Positions 50,518 to 61,233 of a stretch of DNA of 64,000 nucleotides are shown here, piece after piece. Within the stretch, counting starts at the first letter, position 1, and each line of letters begins with the position of its first letter. The DNA comes from a virus. The DNA is taken from positions 1 to 64,000 of the IMG/VR virus record IMGVR_UViG_3300025128_000017; one strand, given 5' to 3'. The position numbers were made by a program, and so were the translations under genes. A model generated the notes under the pieces. That model saw nothing but the letters and a program-made list of their open reading frames with translations. It did not search any database and was not told where the DNA came from.

Positions 50518-51047
50518 TCATCTTCACCTTCCTCTTCATCATCTAACATCCCAAATAGGGCATTTCCATACACTTCAGGGTATTTTGGATGTGTGCTATA
50601 CAACATCACCTTTGATGACCACTCTCCATTGACGAATGATACGATGTCTTTTGTAGATATATAATACACATCACCAAAGGGAAAGGATGTATTTGCATAT
50701 GTATCTTCTAAGTACCATTCCCAATTCTTTTGGAATACACGGAATCCTCTTGGTAAGTATTCATTCAATCGTGCTTTGGTAGTAACTGATTGCCAACCAC
50801 CGTCTGATGGCAAGATTCTGTCCTCGTATATGTCTATGATTCTATTACCATGTAGGCGTATTGTGTAGTATGGAAAGGCATCCGTTTTACTCTTTTCAAA
50901 AGAATATGTAAGATTATGATTCCATCCACGCGTTCCTTTAATTTCTTCGGCAGTAGTGAAGTACAACCGTGTGTTGTTTCCAATAGGCTTACCCTTTTTC
51001 TTGTTTCTCGCCGTCTTCATCAATTCTTCTGCTTCATTCCAATTCAT
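50514..51047 (-). CDS. Phage-type hypothetical protein (177 aa)
   Basis: The run PIGNNTRLYFTT, then YTIRLHGNRIIDIYEDRI and SDGGWQSVTTKARLNEYLP follows a pattern seen in many phage and plasmid proteins of unknown function (N-NTxL...IRLHGxxI...GGWxTxTTKxRLN). It carries the second copy of the 27-nt exact repeat shared with the RadA-like gene, encoding FEKSKTDA. C-terminus is very acidic. Confidence 0.6.
   Translation of the reverse strand: MNWNEAEELMKTARNKKKGKPIGNNTRLYFTTAEEIKGTRGWNHNLTYSFEKSKTDAFPYYTIRLHGNRIIDIYEDRILPSDGGWQSVTTKARLNEYLPRGFRVFQKNWEWYLEDTYANTSFPFGDVYYISTKDIVSFVNGEWSSKVMLYSTHPKYPEVYGNALFGMLDDEEEGEDE
50878..50904. repeat. 27-nt exact repeat, copy 2
   Basis: Identical to 24549-24575 and in the same reading frame; flanking bases differ on both sides. 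Confidence 0.85.
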
Positions 51048-51241
51048 TCTACATCCCTCGTTAAAACCATGTTCCCATCATCATCATGTTCCCATGTACC
51101 TAGTCTTCCGTAGTAATCTGCTATGGCATCTAATGCCTCTCGGTATAATCGGATACTAGATTTACGTAATGCGTGAGTAAATTCAGAAGCATTAAAGACA
51201 ATATCTTCGGGAGTTATTATTCTCAACCCTTCATCACTCAT
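51044..51241 (-). CDS. Small protein sharing a duplicated segment with its neighbour (65 aa)
   Basis: Residues about 25-45 (RKSSIRLYREALDAIADYYG) are identical to an internal segment of the upstream gene because of a 64-nt exact DNA repeat (51107-51170 and 51475-51538). The remaining parts are unique. It appears to have gained or donated this module recently. Function unknown. Confidence 0.55.
   Translation of the reverse strand: MSDEGLRIITPEDIVFNASEFTHALRKSSIRLYREALDAIADYYGRLGTWEHDDDGNMVLTRDVE
51107..51170. repeat. 64-nt exact direct repeat, copy 1
   Basis: Identical to 51475-51538. Encodes RKSSIRLYREALDAIADYYG on the minus strand in two adjacent genes. Confidence 0.9.
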
Positions 51242-51699
51242 TCTGTCACCACCAATGGGTCGTCTAAAGATTCCATGAGCGTTATCAGTAATTCACGATG
51301 AGTACGTATGTCAATCACACCTTTGTGTATCTCACCATTGTCCAAGATGATGTCTATACCAATCTTACCCACTGGTACTGCATCCCTTACAATGAGTATC
51401 TTACTACCACTTTCTATTTCTTCCATGATGTTCATTACCAATGGGTCGTCTAAAGATTCCATGAGCGTTATCAGTCCGTAGTAATCTGCTATGGCATCTA
51501 ATGCCTCTCGGTATAATCGGATACTAGATTTACGTAATAATTCACGATGAGCATGTATGTCAATCACACCTTGATGTATCTCACCATTGTCCAAGATGAT
51601 GTCTACACCAACCTTACCATAAGGTACTGCATCCCTTACGATGAGTAACTTACTACCATTTTCTATTTCTTCCATAATGTTCATTTTATTTTCAATCAT
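51238..51699 (-). CDS. Internally duplicated early protein (153 aa), leaderless
   Basis: ATG lies exactly 32 nt after the first base of the promoter; in-frame sequence before it is the promoter itself. The protein contains two copies of a module of about 50 residues (MNIMEEIENGSKLLIVRDAV and MNIMEEIESGSKILIVRDAV), each followed by LITLMESLDDPLV, with the RKSSIRLYREALDAIADYYG insert between. The copies differ at a handful of positions, so the duplication is recent. Mostly beta (DIILDNGEIHQGVIDI). Function unknown. Confidence 0.6.
   Translation of the reverse strand: MIENKMNIMEEIENGSKLLIVRDAVPYGKVGVDIILDNGEIHQGVIDIHAHRELLRKSSIRLYREALDAIADYYGLITLMESLDDPLVMNIMEEIESGSKILIVRDAVPVGKIGIDIILDNGEIHKGVIDIRTHRELLITLMESLDDPLVVTE
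51475..51538. repeat. 64-nt exact direct repeat, copy 2
   Basis: Identical to 51107-51170. Inserted between two longer near-identical repeats (about 51255-51436 and 51438-51684 in part), producing an A-B-C-A-C order of modules. Confidence 0.9.
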
Positions 51700-51713
51700 A
51701 TCCTTTATTAATT

Positions 51714-51731
51714 CTGTTCTTTTATATACTG
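51714..51731 (-). promoter_or_regulatory. TATA promoter of the duplicated-gene unit
   Basis: CAGTATATAAAAGAACAG on the minus strand, 32 nt from the ATG at 51699; predicted leaderless transcript. Confidence 0.8.
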
Positions 51732-52221
51732 AAAAGAATTCAAGCCCACTCACTACACGCAATCCAACAACAAAAACCCAACAACAACCTATTGCGAGGG
51801 TATTATTCTAGTGATTCCAATAATTCGTTTGTACACATGAATAATTCGGACTTTATTATTATTCATACCCCCCTACACTCAATATATACTACTATTATTA
51901 TTATGTATAGATGAATAATAGATTAATTAGAAACATTTGCTGACGTGTATTTGCTTTTTGCTTATACACATACGTGCGTATATGTATATAGGGATTGAAA
52001 ATAGTGGCACTGCATACGGGGTTACGTCATGTTCCCCAACAACAACGGTTTGATTGATATGATAGTCCTCTCTTTGTGCGTACCGCTCTATCAAAAACCT
52101 ACATATTATCAGAATATACCCATCCATATGGGTGGCAACCCCGATTTTTAGACGTATAACGCACCTTTGTTGATTTTTGACGTAATTAGGCACTATTGCG
52201 ATAGGGTGCATATCGCAAGCC
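51732..52221. other. Noncoding region related to the origin-like region
   Basis: About 490 bases without a convincing gene. It holds CCAACAACA-type repeats (51768-51793 and 52028-52039), a hairpin ATGAATAAT...ATTATTCAT (51837-51866), the second AT-rich element (51898-51937), a short inverted repeat ACCCAT-CCAT-ATGGGT with CCATATGGGTGG (near 52118-52136) and GGGGTTACG (near 52018). The CCAACAACA, CCATATGGGTGG and GTAACCC words recur in 53194-53792. It may be part of a bipartite origin or a partitioning or packaging region. Confidence 0.45.
51898..51937. repeat. AT-rich intergenic element, copy 2
   Basis: Top strand ATTATGTATAGATGAATAAT followed by AGATTAATTAGAAACAT. Compare 17316-17362 and 59506-59547. 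Confidence 0.45.
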
Positions 52222-53792: not shown

Positions 53793-54497
53793 ATGAGCAG
53801 CGGCTTTGGTAAAAACAGTGATTTTCATTATTTGTCGCCAAATTTTGTGTTAAAGGCGAAAAGGTCGGGCGAATATTCTACGCCTGACCATGTTTTGTTG
53901 GATAATGTTAGGAATAATAGGCCAAATTCAGCAGATGATAGGCTAACGCCGGAAGAAATGCAAAGAAAAAAAATAGAAATGGCTATGATGAACAAACCTA
54001 ACCCGGATATGATGAAAAGTGATGACAAAAAGAAACCTGCGATGGCTCTTGTGATTTCTGTTGGACCTAAAATGCCAAAAAAACCTACAGACACGGCAAC
54101 TCCTGACAAAATGAAAAAATATGGTACTATGAAAAAAGCATGGAGTGTTTTAAAAAATAACATGGAAGTTGGAATGTGCAAAAATTGTGAAGGTACTGGT
54201 AAAATTCCGTTTAGAGCATCGCAAGCAAGAGGAAGGTTTGACCCTAATCCAGAAGCAGGACAAATAGGAGACCCATGCCCATCATGCGGGGGTGATGGGA
54301 GTGCCCCTATAAGTGACCCTGCTTTTACATCAATGCAACAAAAATTAACTGGTGAGCCTATGAATTTAGCATTTAGATTACTTAAAGAGTCTATTGACCC
54401 TAAAAAATTAGCAGAAATGAGAGCAGCAAGAGATGCTGCTAGAAGACAAATGGGTCAATCAAATCCCGAAAGAGGCGGAGATGTTGACCCAATTTGA
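53793..54497 (+). CDS. Late protein with DnaJ-like zinc motifs and two AWxxLK motifs (234 aa)
   Basis: First gene of the late plus-strand module. Contains CKNCEGTG (about 130-137) and CPSCGGDG (about 164-171), the CxxCxGxG zinc knuckles of DnaJ-type proteins, plus KKAWSVLKNN (about 110-119) and MNLAFRLLKE (about 189-198), two copies of the short helical motif found throughout this module. N-terminal half is basic and Met-rich. A TATA-like TTAATATCC lies about 30 nt before the ATG, suggesting a leaderless start. Function unknown; virion or assembly role inferred. Confidence 0.65.
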   Translation: MSSGFGKNSDFHYLSPNFVLKAKRSGEYSTPDHVLLDNVRNNRPNSADDRLTPEEMQRKKIEMAMMNKPNPDMMKSDDKKKPAMALVISVGPKMPKKPTDTATPDKMKKYGTMKKAWSVLKNNMEVGMCKNCEGTGKIPFRASQARGRFDPNPEAGQIGDPCPSCGGDGSAPISDPAFTSMQQKLTGEPMNLAFRLLKESIDPKKLAEMRAARDAARRQMGQSNPERGGDVDPI

Positions 54498-55479
54498 CAT
54501 CGCTTGGTCTTTTTTGAAGGCCGATGATGATGCAAAGTTAATGGCTGAAATACAAAGGCAACTTGCTGAATTTAGAAATAATGAAAATATGAGCAACGAT
54601 GTATCTGAGCAACCCGCTACAGAACCTCAATCTTTTAATCCAAGTGAAAGAAAACTTGCTTTTCCTAGAAAACGTAGTAAAAAATATTCTATACCAATAA
54701 GACAAGACGAATCGAATGAAGAATTTAAATTAGGACCTTCGTTTAGAGAAAGAACTGATGAATCGCAAGGTTCACAAATGCAAATAGAAGAACAAAAACG
54801 ACAAGCCGTTGAAAGATTAAAAAATAAAATAAAAAGAAAAAATGAAGTTGCAGTAACGAGAGGCGGTAGTGGTGTTTACGCTGACGATGAACATGCAGAA
54901 ACAGTTAGGCAAGATTGGTTAGACTCAATGTCTGATGATGAAAGACAAAGATTTGCAGAACATGAAGAAGATTTCAACACTTTGGCTATATTGGCAGAAA
55001 TGAAAAGACAAGGTGCAGTAGACCAAGACGCATTGGGTATGTATGGAGAAAATCTTGCTAGTGGTGCTATGTTGTTGGCTACTCCTGAGTCACAGCGTGA
55101 TGAAAATTGGAATAATGCATTGAAAAACCACAAATTGGCTCATGCTGTGCATAATGATGAGTTAGACAATTCTTTTGATGGTTATGATAAAGTTTCAGAC
55201 AATGTTGGTGTGGTTGATAACAACAAAAAAATGGCTGAAAAATTATATGGTTACAAAGAAGATGTTGACGAAGAAGAAGAAGACGATGGTGATGAATTAC
55301 TTCCAGATGATTATGTTATGCCCGGTTCGCCAGTTGCTTTACAAAATGAAAAGAAAGAACAAGAAAATAATACTTTACAAAACGAAATTGCACGTCAAAT
55401 TGCAGAATACAATAAAAACATGGTTGGTGTTACAAATAAACCACAATATACTGAAGAAGACTATGAAGCAGGTGATTAA
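54481..55479 (+). CDS. Acidic late protein with N-terminal AWxxLK motif (332 aa)
   Basis: Start chosen at the ATG in GGCGGAGATG, overlapping the upstream gene by 17 nt. Begins MLTQFDIAWSFLKADDD, matching the family motif. Then a basic stretch (50-80), a long charged helix and a very acidic segment near 270 (EEEEDDGDELLPDDY). Looks like a scaffold or internal head protein, with the motif as a possible docking or cleavage site. No family recognised. Confidence 0.6.
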   Translation: MLTQFDIAWSFLKADDDAKLMAEIQRQLAEFRNNENMSNDVSEQPATEPQSFNPSERKLAFPRKRSKKYSIPIRQDESNEEFKLGPSFRERTDESQGSQMQIEEQKRQAVERLKNKIKRKNEVAVTRGGSGVYADDEHAETVRQDWLDSMSDDERQRFAEHEEDFNTLAILAEMKRQGAVDQDALGMYGENLASGAMLLATPESQRDENWNNALKNHKLAHAVHNDELDNSFDGYDKVSDNVGVVDNNKKMAEKLYGYKEDVDEEEEDDGDELLPDDYVMPGSPVALQNEKKEQENNTLQNEIARQIAEYNKNMVGVTNKPQYTEEDYEAGD

Positions 55480-55485
55480 CGCCAA

Positions 55486-55500
55486 CAGTATATAAAGCAC
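55486..55500 (+). promoter_or_regulatory. Plus-strand TATA promoter inside the late module
   Basis: CAGTATATAAAGCAC on the plus strand, directly after the acidic late protein's stop. Predicted start about 55518, giving a leader of about 20 nt before the ATG at 55538. Confidence 0.65.
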
Positions 55501-55537
55501 AAGTTTTATTTACACACTACGTGTAGCATATATACAG

Positions 55538-55741
55538 ATGAGTGCGAGCCAAAGAGCGTTTGATGATGCTTGGTTGATGTTAAAGTCTCAGCCTGTAGGT
55601 TTGTCATTTACTAAATCTCAAAGAGACAAAATTGTTCATACAATTGTTAAGATGATGCAAAGTGATAACCCTGAAATGATAGAAAAAGCCACAGAATTGT
55701 ACAGTCTCTACAATAATTCTTTTGATATTACTCTGAATTGA
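55538..55741 (+). CDS. Small late protein with AWxxLK motif (67 aa)
   Basis: Begins MSASQRAFDDAWLMLKSQ, the module's motif, followed by a helical domain (RDKIVHTIVKMMQSDNPEMI). It overlaps, tail to tail, the minus-strand glycine-zipper gene by 14 nt. It has its own promoter. Function unknown. Confidence 0.6.
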   Translation: MSASQRAFDDAWLMLKSQPVGLSFTKSQRDKIVHTIVKMMQSDNPEMIEKATELYSLYNNSFDITLN

Positions 55742-56060
55742 AACCAGTTGTTGTGCCAGCGTGTTCTCTAGCGTCCGTAGCGGCTTCTTGTATTTTATTA
55801 CCTGTGTCGCCTACTTTAGCACCAACTTTTTTCCCTGCTTTTCTGCCAGCCATACCACCGACTAGTGAACCAACTCTTGCACCAATTGCTGTTCCAATTC
55901 CCGGAACTACACTTCCAATCGCAGCACCAAGTGCAGCACCACCAGCAGCACCTGCCGCAGTTCCACCAACAGCACCACCACCAGCACCTACTTTTCCTTC
56001 AGTGGTTTTAGCATCGCCGTATTTTAAAACAGACCACGCTTCTTCAAATGGGTCGACCAT
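55728..56060 (-). CDS. Glycine-zipper protein with AWxxLK motif, on the opposite strand (110 aa)
   Basis: Minus-strand gene within the plus-strand module. It begins MVDPFEEAWSVLKYGD, the same motif as its plus-strand neighbours, which shows the minus reading is the real one. Residues 27-85 are a Gly/Ala zipper (GGAALGAAIGSVVPGIGTAI) like membrane-inserting or channel-forming proteins. Its C-terminus is polar. Possible roles are membrane penetration at entry or lysis. The plus-strand frame over it is a Pro/Ala-rich artefact. Confidence 0.65.
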   Translation of the reverse strand: MVDPFEEAWSVLKYGDAKTTEGKVGAGGGAVGGTAAGAAGGAALGAAIGSVVPGIGTAIGARVGSLVGGMAGRKAGKKVGAKVGDTGNKIQEAATDAREHAGTTTGFNSE

Positions 56061-56087
56061 AATAAGCGGAGGAAGGGGAAGGTAAAA

Positions 56088-56858
56088 ATGCTGTCGCCTT
56101 TCGTAAGACCTATCATGTACGTAGGTGTTATACGGAAAGCACCTGTAGATTTCTCAACATATCAGCAAGTACAAGACAATGGAAGAACAATTCATACTGC
56201 TGATGCTTATGAAGATGGAACTGAAGCAAACGAATACACCTCTCCTAATTATCAATTAAGAGCAGAAACAGAAGGTTTAGGTGGTAGAAAACCGTTTGCA
56301 CAAGTTGTTGCAGGAAAAGTAGGTAGAACACCAATAGGTACAGATACAGAAGACCAAAGTTTTGGAGAACCTACAAACATTAGAGGTAAGGCTACCTTTA
56401 GTAGAGTACCTGCAAGAGAAGATTTCAAATTAGATGATGAAGAAGCGGGAAATTTAGCAGCAGACAATGTTTATGTTGATGAAGCAGATAGAAGACGAGG
56501 TATTGGTTCTGACATGTACGATTTAATGGCACATATAGGTGAACGAAAAAATATGAATTTAGTTCCATCTGAAAATCAAACCGCTGATGGAAAAAAATTT
56601 TGGAGTAAAAGTGGTCAAGAAGGTCAATGGAGGATTAATAGAAGTGAACCTATGAATATAACTTTACAACTACTAAAGGGAAAAAGTTACATTCAAGATA
56701 GACCAAAACGACTCGCACAAGCCAAAGTTCAACGTCTTAGCCGAAAAGTTAAGAACGCACGCACTCAACACAAGTACAAACGTAATTTGGCTCGTGGAGC
56801 AATTAGACCAAAAATGAGGACACAAACCGGATTAATTAGAGTAACAAGGAGTAGATGA
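56088..56858 (+). CDS. GNAT-like acetyltransferase domain protein with LLK motif and basic tail (256 aa)
   Basis: Residues 100-175 have the acetyl-CoA-binding signature of GNAT enzymes (NVYVDEADRRRGIGSDMYDL, RRRGIG at 135-140). Then SEPMNITLQLLKG matches the module's internal motif, and the last 55 residues are highly basic (KVQRLSRKVKNARTQHKYKR). GGAGGAAGGGGAAGG precedes the ATG. Such enzymes in phage heads could acetylate host or capsid proteins; the basic tail suggests DNA contact. The GNAT call is moderately supported. Confidence 0.6.
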   Translation: MLSPFVRPIMYVGVIRKAPVDFSTYQQVQDNGRTIHTADAYEDGTEANEYTSPNYQLRAETEGLGGRKPFAQVVAGKVGRTPIGTDTEDQSFGEPTNIRGKATFSRVPAREDFKLDDEEAGNLAADNVYVDEADRRRGIGSDMYDLMAHIGERKNMNLVPSENQTADGKKFWSKSGQEGQWRINRSEPMNITLQLLKGKSYIQDRPKRLAQAKVQRLSRKVKNARTQHKYKRNLARGAIRPKMRTQTGLIRVTRSR

Positions 56859-56859
56859 T

Positions 56860-57153
56860 ATGAAACCAATAGACGCAGCATTTTCTTTTTTAAAAGCAGC
56901 AGGACCAATGAGACAATTAATGGATAATCCAGCCGACCCACAGAGTGAGTTAGTTGCTGGTGATGATGAAAAATTACAACAAGCGTATGAAGAAGCACAT
57001 AAAGAAATAGATGAGCATCATAAAAAGAAGCAGACTGCACAAAAAAGAAGAGATGAAATGAATCATCGCAATTCCAAGAAAGATGTTGACAAATTCTATG
57101 AAGATAATCACCCTGATTTCTTTAGCAGTTTAACTAAACCTGAATTAGATTAA
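56860..57153 (+). CDS. Small late protein with AFSFLKA motif (97 aa)
   Basis: Begins MKPIDAAFSFLKAAGP, the module's motif at the extreme N-terminus, followed by a charged coiled coil (EEAHKEIDEHHKKKQTAQKR). The Asp/Phe-rich C-terminus (NHPDFFSSL) is unique. Function unknown. Confidence 0.6.
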   Translation: MKPIDAAFSFLKAAGPMRQLMDNPADPQSELVAGDDEKLQQAYEEAHKEIDEHHKKKQTAQKRRDEMNHRNSKKDVDKFYEDNHPDFFSSLTKPELD

Positions 57154-57159
57154 GTGATT

Positions 57160-58338
57160 ATGATGAACCCGTTTGACGTTGCTTTTGAATTTATTAAAGC
57201 ACCTCCACCTGATTTATATTACAATGCTGAAGAAAGTGTACCATACGATAATGACGCAATGCATAATATAATGGGTACTGCTAAATTACAAGAAGTATTA
57301 CAAGAAGACCCCGCTGTAATGGTAGATGCACATTTTGGTGCTTTCGATGAAGGTGTTAGAGGGGCAGATTTAAACCCAAAAGGGATGAATTATGGTATGC
57401 CTTATCATAAACTTATTACTAACCAACGAATGAAACCAGAAACAATTAATTTCATAAGAACTTTAGGAGCATCTGAAACATCTCCAGTTGGGATGAGTGT
57501 TGATGCAAAACAAATTTCAAACATAGTACATGACGGAGAAGATTGGATACACAGTAAAGAAAAAAATAAAGGTCATTGGCAATATTCAATCAAACCTCTT
57601 GTGGGTACATCAGAAACTGGAAGAAAACAATTTCCCAATTTTGATTTAGGTGATATGAGATTTTTAAATGATATGGAAAATATGTCCGATGAAGAAAAAT
57701 TTCATAGAGATTTTTTCCTATCTGAAAAAGGGCAAGACATGTTTTATAGTGATGATAATCATCATAAAGCGAAAAGAGATTCTATAGAATACTCCGTAAA
57801 TGCACCAGATGAAAATTCTACTGCTGAAGAATTGATGACTTATTATTCTAATACAGGGGCAAAAGGTGCTGAATGGTATCCACATTTATCTGAAGCAGGA
57901 AGAAAATACATAAATAAAAATTTAGGAAAACCGGGATTTGCAAAGCCTATAAAAATCCTTATAGATAATGCAATGGTGGAAAGAAAGAGAGTTTTAGAGG
58001 CAAGGGAAGAGGCAAAGAAGCGAGGTCCTTTAGACGAACAAGGTAGACAAATTTCCGTTAAAAGCGAACCAATGGATATAGCCTTCCAATTACTGAAAGA
58101 ACGTAAGTCACCTGAAGCGTTTGCCAACAAAAAGAAATACGATAGTGAATATCAAAAAACACCAAAGCGTGTAAAATATCGTGAACAACTAAATGCAGAA
58201 CGTAGAAGAAGAGGAATATATGGCAAAGGTGGAAAAGATGTCAGCCATACACAAGGTGGAAAATTAACATTAGAAAGTGTTCATGCTAATAGAGCAAGAC
58301 ACTTTAAGAATAAAGGAACGCTTAGGAGAGTGAAATGA
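57160..58338 (+). CDS. Late protein with two AxxLK motifs (392 aa)
   Basis: Start at ATG 57160 (GTGATT ribosome binding site before it). Begins MMNPFDVAFEFIKAPPP and later has SEPMDIAFQLLKERKS (about residue 305-320), then a basic C-terminal region (KRVKYREQLNAERRRRGI), the same order as the GNAT-like gene: domain, SEPM-LLK motif, basic tail. Middle region is acidic and helical with no recognised fold. Proposed internal head or assembly protein. Confidence 0.6.
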   Translation: MMNPFDVAFEFIKAPPPDLYYNAEESVPYDNDAMHNIMGTAKLQEVLQEDPAVMVDAHFGAFDEGVRGADLNPKGMNYGMPYHKLITNQRMKPETINFIRTLGASETSPVGMSVDAKQISNIVHDGEDWIHSKEKNKGHWQYSIKPLVGTSETGRKQFPNFDLGDMRFLNDMENMSDEEKFHRDFFLSEKGQDMFYSDDNHHKAKRDSIEYSVNAPDENSTAEELMTYYSNTGAKGAEWYPHLSEAGRKYINKNLGKPGFAKPIKILIDNAMVERKRVLEAREEAKKRGPLDEQGRQISVKSEPMDIAFQLLKERKSPEAFANKKKYDSEYQKTPKRVKYREQLNAERRRRGIYGKGGKDVSHTQGGKLTLESVHANRARHFKNKGTLRRVK

Positions 58339-58409
58339 AACAAACATTACCTTTGCGGAGAATAAAAACAAGTAGTAGGTTTAATTGGTGGAAGTGTGAC
58401 TTAATATGA
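58335..58409 (+). CDS. Possible basic mini-protein (24 aa)
   Basis: A 24-codon ORF (KQTLPLRRIKTSSRFNWWKC) with ATGA overlaps to both neighbours. Basic and aromatic. Supported by coupling only. Confidence 0.4.
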   Translation: MKQTLPLRRIKTSSRFNWWKCDLI

Positions 58410-58588
58410 GTTGTGAATGTGGTCATTGTGTAGGTATGGATGGAGCATGGGATATGCTTGAAAAAAAATTATGTCCTGCTGGTAAAGCGGCTGCAAAAAG
58501 AAAGTTCAAAGTTTATCCATCTGCATATGCTAATGGTTGGGCTGTACAATATTGTCGTGGTAAGTTTAAGGGGAAGAAAAAGAAATGA
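58406..58588 (+). CDS. DUF5872-like basic protein with AWDMLE motif (60 aa)
   Basis: CECGHC at the start (residues 3-8) may bind metal, followed by GAWDMLEKKL (module motif variant) and CPAGKAAAKRKFKVYPSAYA then NGWAVQYCRGKFKGK. The KxKFxVYPSAYANG-AxxxC pattern is found in small basic proteins of marine phages and large eukaryotic viruses (I recall DUF5872-type). Probably packages or condenses DNA or RNA; inferred from charge. Confidence 0.6.
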   Translation: MSCECGHCVGMDGAWDMLEKKLCPAGKAAAKRKFKVYPSAYANGWAVQYCRGKFKGKKKK

Positions 58589-58797
58589 ATCATATTGCTA
58601 ATGTGAAAGCATGGAATCTTCTCAAAGGGAAAGAGGATGCACCAAATTATCGGAAAGCCACAGGACCAAAAAAATGTGGTAATTGTAAAGCATGGGATTC
58701 TTCAAAAACAAATGACCCAATGACAGGGTATTGTGAAATGTATGATTTTACTTGTAGAGCAGACCATACTTGTGATGCATGGGTGAGTAAAAAATGA
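58585..58797 (+). CDS. Cys-rich HiPIP-like small protein with AWNLLKG motif (70 aa)
   Basis: Begins with VKAWNLLKGKED (module motif). CGNCKAWDSS...GYCEMYDFTC...CDAWVSKK matches small phage proteins with the CxxC-GxC-C-CDxW pattern, sometimes described as high-potential iron-sulfur-like. The four Cys likely bind zinc or Fe-S. ATGA/short overlaps with neighbours. Confidence 0.6.
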   Translation: MNHIANVKAWNLLKGKEDAPNYRKATGPKKCGNCKAWDSSKTNDPMTGYCEMYDFTCRADHTCDAWVSKK

Positions 58798-60519: not shown

Positions 60520-61233
60520 ATGATGACGGGTGGTAGCGTATTAGTAGGTGCTGCCTTATACGGTCAAGCGTTATATAATTCTTGGAAACCTAGAAGAGTA
60601 GGAATATATGGTACTAGTATGGTTGGTAAAACTACCTTAGATAGATATATGACAACACCGGGTGAAATGGAAGAAATTCCTGTAGATGAAAGAACTGACC
60701 ATTTTAAATTAATAACTAGATATATATTACCTAAACCTACAAGAAAACGAATTAGTTATTCCGGTGAAAAAAGAGTTGTTTATTCTTCTGATGTAGGAGG
60801 ACATGATAGATTTTGGAATCTTTGGATAGATGATATGGTTGCAAGACAAGTTGAATGCGTTGTATACATGTTTGATGATAGGGCTTTTGCAGGTGGTCCT
60901 GATGGTATAGACCAATTAGCCGGATTCAAGTTTTTAGTTGATGCTTTGATAAATCGTAATTATAGGTATAGAACTCTTAAAAGTAGATTAAAGGGTAAAA
61001 GATACGCTCCTAGATTACTTATGTTAGTAGCAAATAAGGCTGATAGATTCTTTGATAAAAGTGCAGCAGATTTATGGTCACAAGGAAGAATAGGTGAACA
61101 TAAAATATTTGACCCGTTTAGAGATGAGTTGATTAGATTGCAAAAAGCAAACCTACCAACAAAACGTGCTTTCATGGCAACTAGGGTAGGTTGGAACGTA
61201 GAGCCAACAATGGTAGATTTATTGACTACATGA
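60520..61233 (+). CDS. Membrane-anchored small GTPase, Arf/SR-beta-like (237 aa)
   Basis: G1 GTSMVGKT (31-38), G3 DVGGHD (91-96) and G4 NKAD (172-175) are in the order and spacing of a Ras-superfamily GTPase. The catalytic Gln after DVGG is His, as in SR-beta. An N-terminal hydrophobic stretch (GGSVLVGAALYGQALYNSW, 4-22) probably anchors it in the membrane like SR-beta or Arf. The C-terminal 50 residues complete the fold with a possible G5 (FMATRVG). It might steer membrane remodelling, targeting of virion membrane proteins or release. AbrB-like regulator follows. Confidence 0.82.
   Translation: MMTGGSVLVGAALYGQALYNSWKPRRVGIYGTSMVGKTTLDRYMTTPGEMEEIPVDERTDHFKLITRYILPKPTRKRISYSGEKRVVYSSDVGGHDRFWNLWIDDMVARQVECVVYMFDDRAFAGGPDGIDQLAGFKFLVDALINRNYRYRTLKSRLKGKRYAPRLLMLVANKADRFFDKSAADLWSQGRIGEHKIFDPFRDELIRLQKANLPTKRAFMATRVGWNVEPTMVDLLTT

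Follow-up and report, generated by a model that had tools for sequence, protein, structure and literature searches.

A ten-residue peptide recurring on unrelated proteins of magrovirus-like archaeal viruses, a probable address for cargo of the virus head

Introduction

Encapsulin cargo-loading peptides are short peptides that mark diverse cargo for a shell of the HK97 fold. In phage T4, the capsid targeting sequence (CTS) carried by IPI-III and Alt has been shown to direct proteins to the inside of the prohead (PMC7411985). In phage P1, the internal proteins DarA and Hdf dock via helices on the inner face of the capsid, and other Dar proteins need them for packaging (PMC12810830). Phage polyvalent proteins, of the kind of T4 Alt, P1 DarB/DdrB and the N4 virion RNA polymerase, contain ADP-ribosyltransferase (ART), peptidase and anti-restriction-type domains; their packaging into the virion and injection have been predicted (PMC5512222). 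Here, we analyzed bases 1-64000 of the 96,157-base virus record IMGVR_UViG_3300025128_000017 (the window) and describe a ten-residue peptide, denoted the tag, that recurs on neighboring proteins encoded upstream of the head genes and that is probably a short address loading virion cargo into the head.

The tag resembles the T4 CTS by description, both being short helix-like peptides borne by late proteins that are otherwise unrelated and include an ADP-ribosyltransferase. However, the T4 peptide is only N-terminal, marks four proteins and is removed by gp21, whereas the archaeal-virus tag can be N-terminal, internal or C-terminal and marks many proteins per virus, from more than 100 families. 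Encapsulin peptides likewise mark diverse cargo with a short peptide (PMC7355545), but they are mostly C-terminal, usually serve one or a few cargo proteins and belong to a cellular compartment. Polyvalent proteins are multi-domain late proteins with effector-type domains, of which the tagged proteins contain putative counterparts; no common address tag was found in the part of that survey used here (PMC5512222), and most of the archaeal-virus domains are encoded by individual small genes that bear a tag of their own. The helix docking of internal head proteins in P1 is also similar, but loading there proceeds via dedicated DarA-Hdf pairs instead of a common short tag on each cargo. By this comparison the nearest functional devices appear to be the T4 CTS and the encapsulin loading peptides, and the tag fits the positional definition of neither.

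A ten-residue tag is enriched on neighboring proteins

The initial annotation of the region 53793-58797 listed copies of a motif, A-[WF]-x-x-[LI]-K, in nine neighboring genes, and we found every one of them in its place. The motif is real, but its true extent is ten residues, beginning at P or A, with the matrix consensus P-[FM]-D-x-A-[WF]-x-[LV]-L-K (in summary form P-[FM]-D-x-A-[WF]-x-L-L-K). Neither a background frequency in shuffled late proteins nor absence from sister viruses, each of which would have spoken against it, was observed. The strict form A[WF]xx[LIM]K has 9 matches in the ten proteins of the cluster, which total 1,738 aa; in 20,000 shuffles of these proteins it averaged 0.07 matches and never exceeded 2, and the rest of the called proteins of the genome (30,188 aa) contain 3. 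Using a position weight matrix trained without the source genome and a match threshold of at least 11 bits, we obtained 10 matches in the source genome against 0.05 per shuffle. Leave-one-out matrices found 2-18 matches in each of 14 other records (0-0.33 in shuffles), and the 15 records together gave 161 tag matches against 0-2 in shuffles. The tag was present in 15 out of 15 related records, and it also occurred on many further contigs.

The tagged genes and their tags are as follows (window coordinates, unless marked as genome coordinates):

53793..54497, plus strand, tagged protein 1, 234 aa, with a CxxC zinc domain between two tags; weak DnaJ/anti-TRAP zinc-domain matches
54126..54155, plus strand, tag TMKKAWSVLK, internal, 22.3 bits
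54357..54386, plus strand, tag PMNLAFRLLK, internal, preceded by TGE, 26.3 bits
54433..55479, plus strand, tagged protein 2; start probably at 54481 (MLTQFDIAW...), which makes its tag N-terminal
54490..54519, plus strand, tag QFDIAWSFLK, N-terminal, 27.7 bits
55538..55741, plus strand, tagged protein 3, 67 aa; tagged homolog in G007
55556..55585, plus strand, tag AFDDAWLMLK, N-terminal, 26.5 bits
55728..56060, minus strand, glycine-zipper protein with N-terminal tag; Pfam Gly-zipper_Omp, E 7.4e-6; tagged minus-strand homolog in L046
56022..56051, minus strand, tag PFEEAWSVLK, N-terminal
56088..56858, plus strand, tagged protein, 256 aa, GNAT-like domain and basic tail; Acetyltransf_7, E 0.0073, below the Pfam cut-off
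56649..56678, plus strand, weak tag PMNITLQLLK, internal, preceded by SE, 11.5 bits; PMNITFQLLK in the L046 homolog
56860..57153, plus strand, tagged protein, 97 aa, coiled coil
56866..56895, plus strand, tag PIDAAFSFLK, N-terminal, 26.7 bits
57154..58338, plus strand, two-tag protein with a C-terminal basic domain common to cyanophage Syn5 gp50
57169..57198, plus strand, tag PFDVAFEFIK, N-terminal, 19.2 bits
58069..58098, plus strand, tag PMDIAFQLLK, internal, preceded by SE, 30.4 bits
58433..58462, plus strand, degenerate tag GMDGAWDMLE, sub-threshold, in a 60-aa protein (58406-58588); a ...WDLLEK-like variant in G020
58585..58797, plus strand, tagged small cysteine-rich protein, 70 aa; tagged homologs in G017 and G021
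58597..58626, plus strand, tag ANVKAWNLLK, N-terminal, 11.7 bits; homologs ALEHAWRIIK, 20.3 bits
64480-65760 (genome), a 426-aa gene with the tag GEPMEIAYQLLK, ~6 kb beyond the cluster

Among the listed copies, MNITLQLLKG belongs to the set as a weak member at 11.5 bits, and GAWDMLEKKL, proposed as a variant, fell below the match threshold. Ten copies lie in the nine neighboring genes, and the further tag in the 426-aa gene lies outside this range.

The tag is a modular, selectively conserved peptide with helical features

Across 392 distinct contexts, which include homologous genes of related viruses, the tag was N-terminal in 210, internal in 164 and C-terminal in 18. Thus, only 210 of the 392 share the N-terminal position of the T4 CTS and only 18 the C-terminal position of encapsulin peptides. 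Typical forms are M-N-P-F-D-Q-A-W-x-L-L-K at the N-terminus and T-G-E-P-M-D-I-A-F-Q-L-L-K at internal sites, and A5, L9 and K10 were each present in >90% of the contexts of both classes. P1 is preceded by N, T or S in the N-terminal class and by [GS]-E in the internal class, residues that could serve as helix caps. The hydrophobic moment at 100 degrees was 0.50, compared to 0.29 in permuted tags, and in a structure model of the ART family (mean pLDDT 71) the tag region stands apart as a helix of residues 3-14, after which comes a linker modelled with low confidence.

The sequence logos of the 392 contexts fall to background level right after K10, and nothing corresponding to the conserved xxE cut site that follows the T4 peptide was found there. 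This bears on the proposal, also made in the initial annotation, that the tag is a maturation site recognized and cleaved by the prohead protease, which would trim N-termini and split proteins with several tags like a polyprotein. Such a protease is encoded in the genome, up to four tags lie between the domains of one protein (64 proteins bear 2-4 tags, at a median distance of 160 residues from one another), and the [ST/K]-[GS]-E ahead of internal tags faintly resembles the xxE sites of the T4 and SPN3US proteases (PMC7411985). We nevertheless consider a protease site unlikely because no position beyond K10 is conserved, because proline, unfavorable for most proteases, follows that E in 84% of internal tags, and because the major capsid protein (MCP) and the protease, which are canonical substrates, have conserved untagged N-termini. 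The portal is also untagged, the E is missing from N-terminal tags, and cutting at C-terminal tags would free only a few residues. As the T4 CTS joins targeting with removal, it is possible that the archaeal tag is cut elsewhere or with another specificity.

When tags were masked and the proteins clustered, 342 distinct tagged open reading frames (ORFs), with 436 tags, fell into 118 families, 78 of them single. The same kind of domain can be combined with the tag in different ways. In G004, an HExxH-type domain encoded by a gene of its own follows the N-terminal tag MNPFNQAWLLLK; in G026, such a domain follows the internal tag SEPMDIAFQLLK within a fusion. Members of the ART family have an N-terminal tag except in L153 and L141. 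L153 is a clear case, in which the ART domain has no tag but its fusion partner does (EAFTAAWNVLK); in L141 the fusion partner has a degenerate tag. In 237 homologous pairs, the mean identity was 0.75 in the tags and 0.44 elsewhere, with the tag higher in 226 pairs. As judged from these alignments, the tag peptide itself is selectively conserved.

A trace of recent duplication or a DNA-level repeat, as opposed to a functional peptide, would also place many copies in one region, and neighboring genes do share some tag-plus-linker stretches, such as LLKQDTRQSTL and LLKGKTRQSTL. However, the amino-acid pattern is kept while the flanks diverge, and we regard this origin as highly improbable. The peptide PMDIAFQLLK is encoded by 23 distinct DNA sequences, which rules out an artifact of DNA repeats or recombination.

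The tag marks one lineage of magrovirus-like viruses in the collections searched

Replication genes encoding PolB, an ERCC4 nuclease, a clamp loader and a Cpn60/TCP1 chaperonin occupy the minus strand at ~13.8-53.2 kb. On the plus strand from 53.8 kb, the tagged genes are followed by conserved small proteins and then by terminase, portal, prohead protease, MCP and tail genes. The MCP is closest to those of haloviruses HVTV-1 and HCTV-5 (32-34% identity). Magrovirales, the viruses of Poseidoniales (marine group II archaea), have been described as viruses of 90-110 kb that are related to Druskaviridae, transcribe their replication and virion modules in opposite directions and encode a chaperonin and an HMG-CoA lyase (PMC12999244, PMC10768690, PMC10160649). 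The genome studied here has a Druskaviridae-related capsid protein, its own replisome, and opposed replication (minus) and head (plus) modules, features by which the group is recognized (PMC12999244, PMC10768690). Since its size, capsid relation and module directions match the published descriptions, we assign the source genome to a tailed archaeal virus of the magrovirus kind. An apparent HMG-CoA lyase, read from the sequence, lies inside the tagged cluster of a related contig (L007:4567-5415). Our literature searches, which did not reach the founding magrovirus papers, gave no description of the tag.

Relatives of one tagged gene were found on 19 IMG/VR contigs, and scans with the back-translated patterns EPM[DN]IAFQLLK and PFDxAWxLLK returned 31 and 50 stretches, respectively. 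The same capsid protein (62-88% identity) was encoded on 33 out of 39 tested contigs from the PFDxAWxLLK scan; of the remaining six, three carry the portal and the other three several tags each (two of these are short, 11-12 kb). In genome_contigs (84,980 species, one genome each), EPM[DN]IAFQLLK matched once, on a contig in a metagenome-assembled genome labelled Maricaulis sp. (L054, NZMJ01000140.1), which we identified as a misbinned fragment of the same virus group and rejected as a cellular occurrence. No tag was found in the late half of HVTV-1, a halovirus with a homologous capsid, or in those regions of Syn5 and S-CBS2 that encode the domain of Syn5 gp50. A lone 14-bit match in the distant virus vir519 was treated as chance. 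Because relatives of the virus carry the tag while HVTV-1, the cyanophage regions and cellular genomes do not, the tag is, as far as the searched collections reach, specific to one lineage of viruses.

Most tagged genes lie upstream of the portal gene and are probably expressed late

Of 134 mapped tags, 121 were located 0-25 kb upstream of the portal gene and none in the 10 kb after its start, a span that here contains the portal-to-protease genes. Tagged genes were on the portal strand in 96 cases and on the opposite strand in 4. Like the genes of polyvalent proteins, they adjoin late virion genes. A sequence element, TATATAAAAGAACA, was found in 8 copies in the window with at most one mismatch (0.24 expected), all on the replication strand and none on the late strand:

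17366, 28745, 33436, 38294, 44531, 49914, 51715 and 53177, minus strand, TATATAAAAGAACA-like elements, three of them inside called ORF starts

The element looks like an early TATA-type promoter. The window scan found none at the tagged genes, which is consistent with their late expression.

The placement of the tagged genes also bears on the possibility that the tag addresses proteins after synthesis to a site inside the cell, such as a membrane site, a replication compartment, the viral chaperonin or a sliding clamp, and not to the virion. The virus encodes a Cpn60/TCP1 chaperonin, conserved and apparently membrane-anchored and GTPase-like proteins are encoded directly downstream of the tagged genes, and any such partner could bind a short helix. 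However, the tag is nearly confined to the late-strand block (some of the 4 in 100 tagged genes on the opposite strand lie within the tagged cluster), and the kinds of cargo correspond to effectors that are injected, whose late synthesis would serve no purpose unless they were packaged. An intracellular address is therefore fairly unlikely, though the least improbable of the alternatives.

Domains of tagged proteins resemble those of injected phage effectors

For the tagged family of L059:8473-8943, Foldseek placed Arr and KptA/Tpt1 on top (probability 1.00, best E 2e-3), with PARP also among the matches, and the model indicates that the family has an ART fold; sequence support for the assignment is weak (PARP, E 0.013). 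Sub-threshold Pfam matches in tagged proteins include PARP, ART-PolyVal, HD, SAM lyase/DUF3293, SLOG, GNAT and DnaJ-type zinc domains. HExxH proteins (L059:6283, L068:2746, L103:2110 and L103:3104), two kinase-like proteins (L063:18071 and L058:3-416; kinase-like structure model, pLDDT 34) and a DGxHR...PV ParB-like family (A4) were assigned from motifs by eye, and the zincin, ParB-like and HipA-like assignments are at motif level only. In the 64 ORFs with 2-4 tags, domain matches are scattered and mostly sub-threshold. Phage effectors that are packaged and injected are reported to have ART, peptidase and anti-restriction-type domains (PMC5512222), and the kinds of domain in the tagged repertoire match these.

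The tags might also bind each other or one adaptor in a structural assembly, such as an inner body or a tail-tip complex, with the enzymatic domains as passengers. A possible hub would be the 426-aa protein, whose gene always adjoins the head genes and which carries one or two tags in 10 out of 11 genomes having it. We regard such an assembly as quite improbable, as tagged repertoires vary greatly among viruses (118 families) and the only near-universal tagged proteins are the 426-aa protein and the basic-domain family.

Probable loading of tagged proteins into the head

The initial annotation had also suggested that the tag is a peptide by which cargo docks for packaging into the head, and this fits the position independence, modularity, helical features, late-block location and effector-like cargo of the tag. 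On balance we consider an address tag for head cargo the probable explanation. The tag would form, from P1 to K10, a capped amphipathic helix in solution, with F/M2, A5, W/F6, L8 and L9 on its hydrophobic face, and would function N-terminally, between domains or C-terminally. During assembly, the helix would dock in a groove of one component of the head-assembly machinery (the scaffold-protease, the inner face of the capsid or another conserved head protein) so that any protein bearing it would enter the procapsid. Once the DNA had been packaged, these proteins would be ready for ejection with the genome and would then act as early effectors in the new host. We favor a docking helix for one head receptor because the tag works at either end of a protein or between domains, on exchangeable late-encoded enzymes.

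Several points weigh against head loading. The receptor could be any of the near-universal late proteins without a tag, of which only the portal, MCP, protease and four structural or tail proteins have halovirus homologs, and our search over these genes singled out none. Packaging is predicted from sequence, magroviruses being uncultured (PMC12999244). Some tagged proteins, such as the 426-aa protein and the glycine-zipper protein, may have a structural role and not be injected. A few tagged genes are located downstream of the capsid gene or at a distance from the head genes, and for most of the cargo domains the databases gave no confident match.

With a universal, position-independent tag, the virus could load whatever host-modifying enzyme it had newly acquired into the capsid and deliver it along with its genome. 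The chances are about even that the tagged proteins form such a rapidly exchangeable, tag-programmed injected arsenal, which, if true, would be the first described in archaeal viruses. Magroviruses are reported to be among the most abundant ocean viruses, all are known from metagenomes, and the majority of their genes are unnamed. The tag marks in each genome the proteins that are probably particle-borne, so that the injected arsenal of uncultured archaeal viruses might be read from sequence. It also suggests a way in which a virus head could pick out many unrelated cargoes, and it may serve as a peptide with which to load proteins into HK97-type shells.

Other features of the head region and its surroundings

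A second conserved C-terminal helix, MSW[DE][DE][IV]Hx[LM]A, ends the prohead protease in nearly all related genomes, as well as a coiled-coil protein of 106 aa, and may be the scaffold's own contact with the capsid. Its sites are:

73815-74135 (genome; L002:10315-10635), the 106-aa protein
L003:2-1066, the end of the protease gene, after a long scaffold-like region

Between the portal and protease genes, a 2,143-aa protein (L002:11236-17667) has a weak C-terminal match to ATP-dependent DNA ligase (E 0.002) and is a candidate for a virion-packaged polyvalent protein.

The basic C-terminal domain of the two-tag protein (window 58102-58335) is common to cyanophages Syn5 (gp50), S-CBS2 and P60, where it stands alone and untagged. 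A glycine-rich, apparently membrane-seeking tagged protein recurs on the opposite strand within the tagged cluster (window 55728-56060; L013-L017).

The protein at window 60520-61233, present in 12 out of 13 related genomes, has a hydrophobic N-terminus and what appear to be a P-loop (GTSMVGKTT), a DVGG motif and an NKAD motif. It gave no Pfam or phage match and, from these motifs, looks like a membrane-anchored small GTPase. On the early side, an internal duplication spans two adjacent ORFs at window 51044-51762, in which LRKSSIRLYREALDAIADYYG and NIMEEIE..GSK.LIVRDAVP are repeated.

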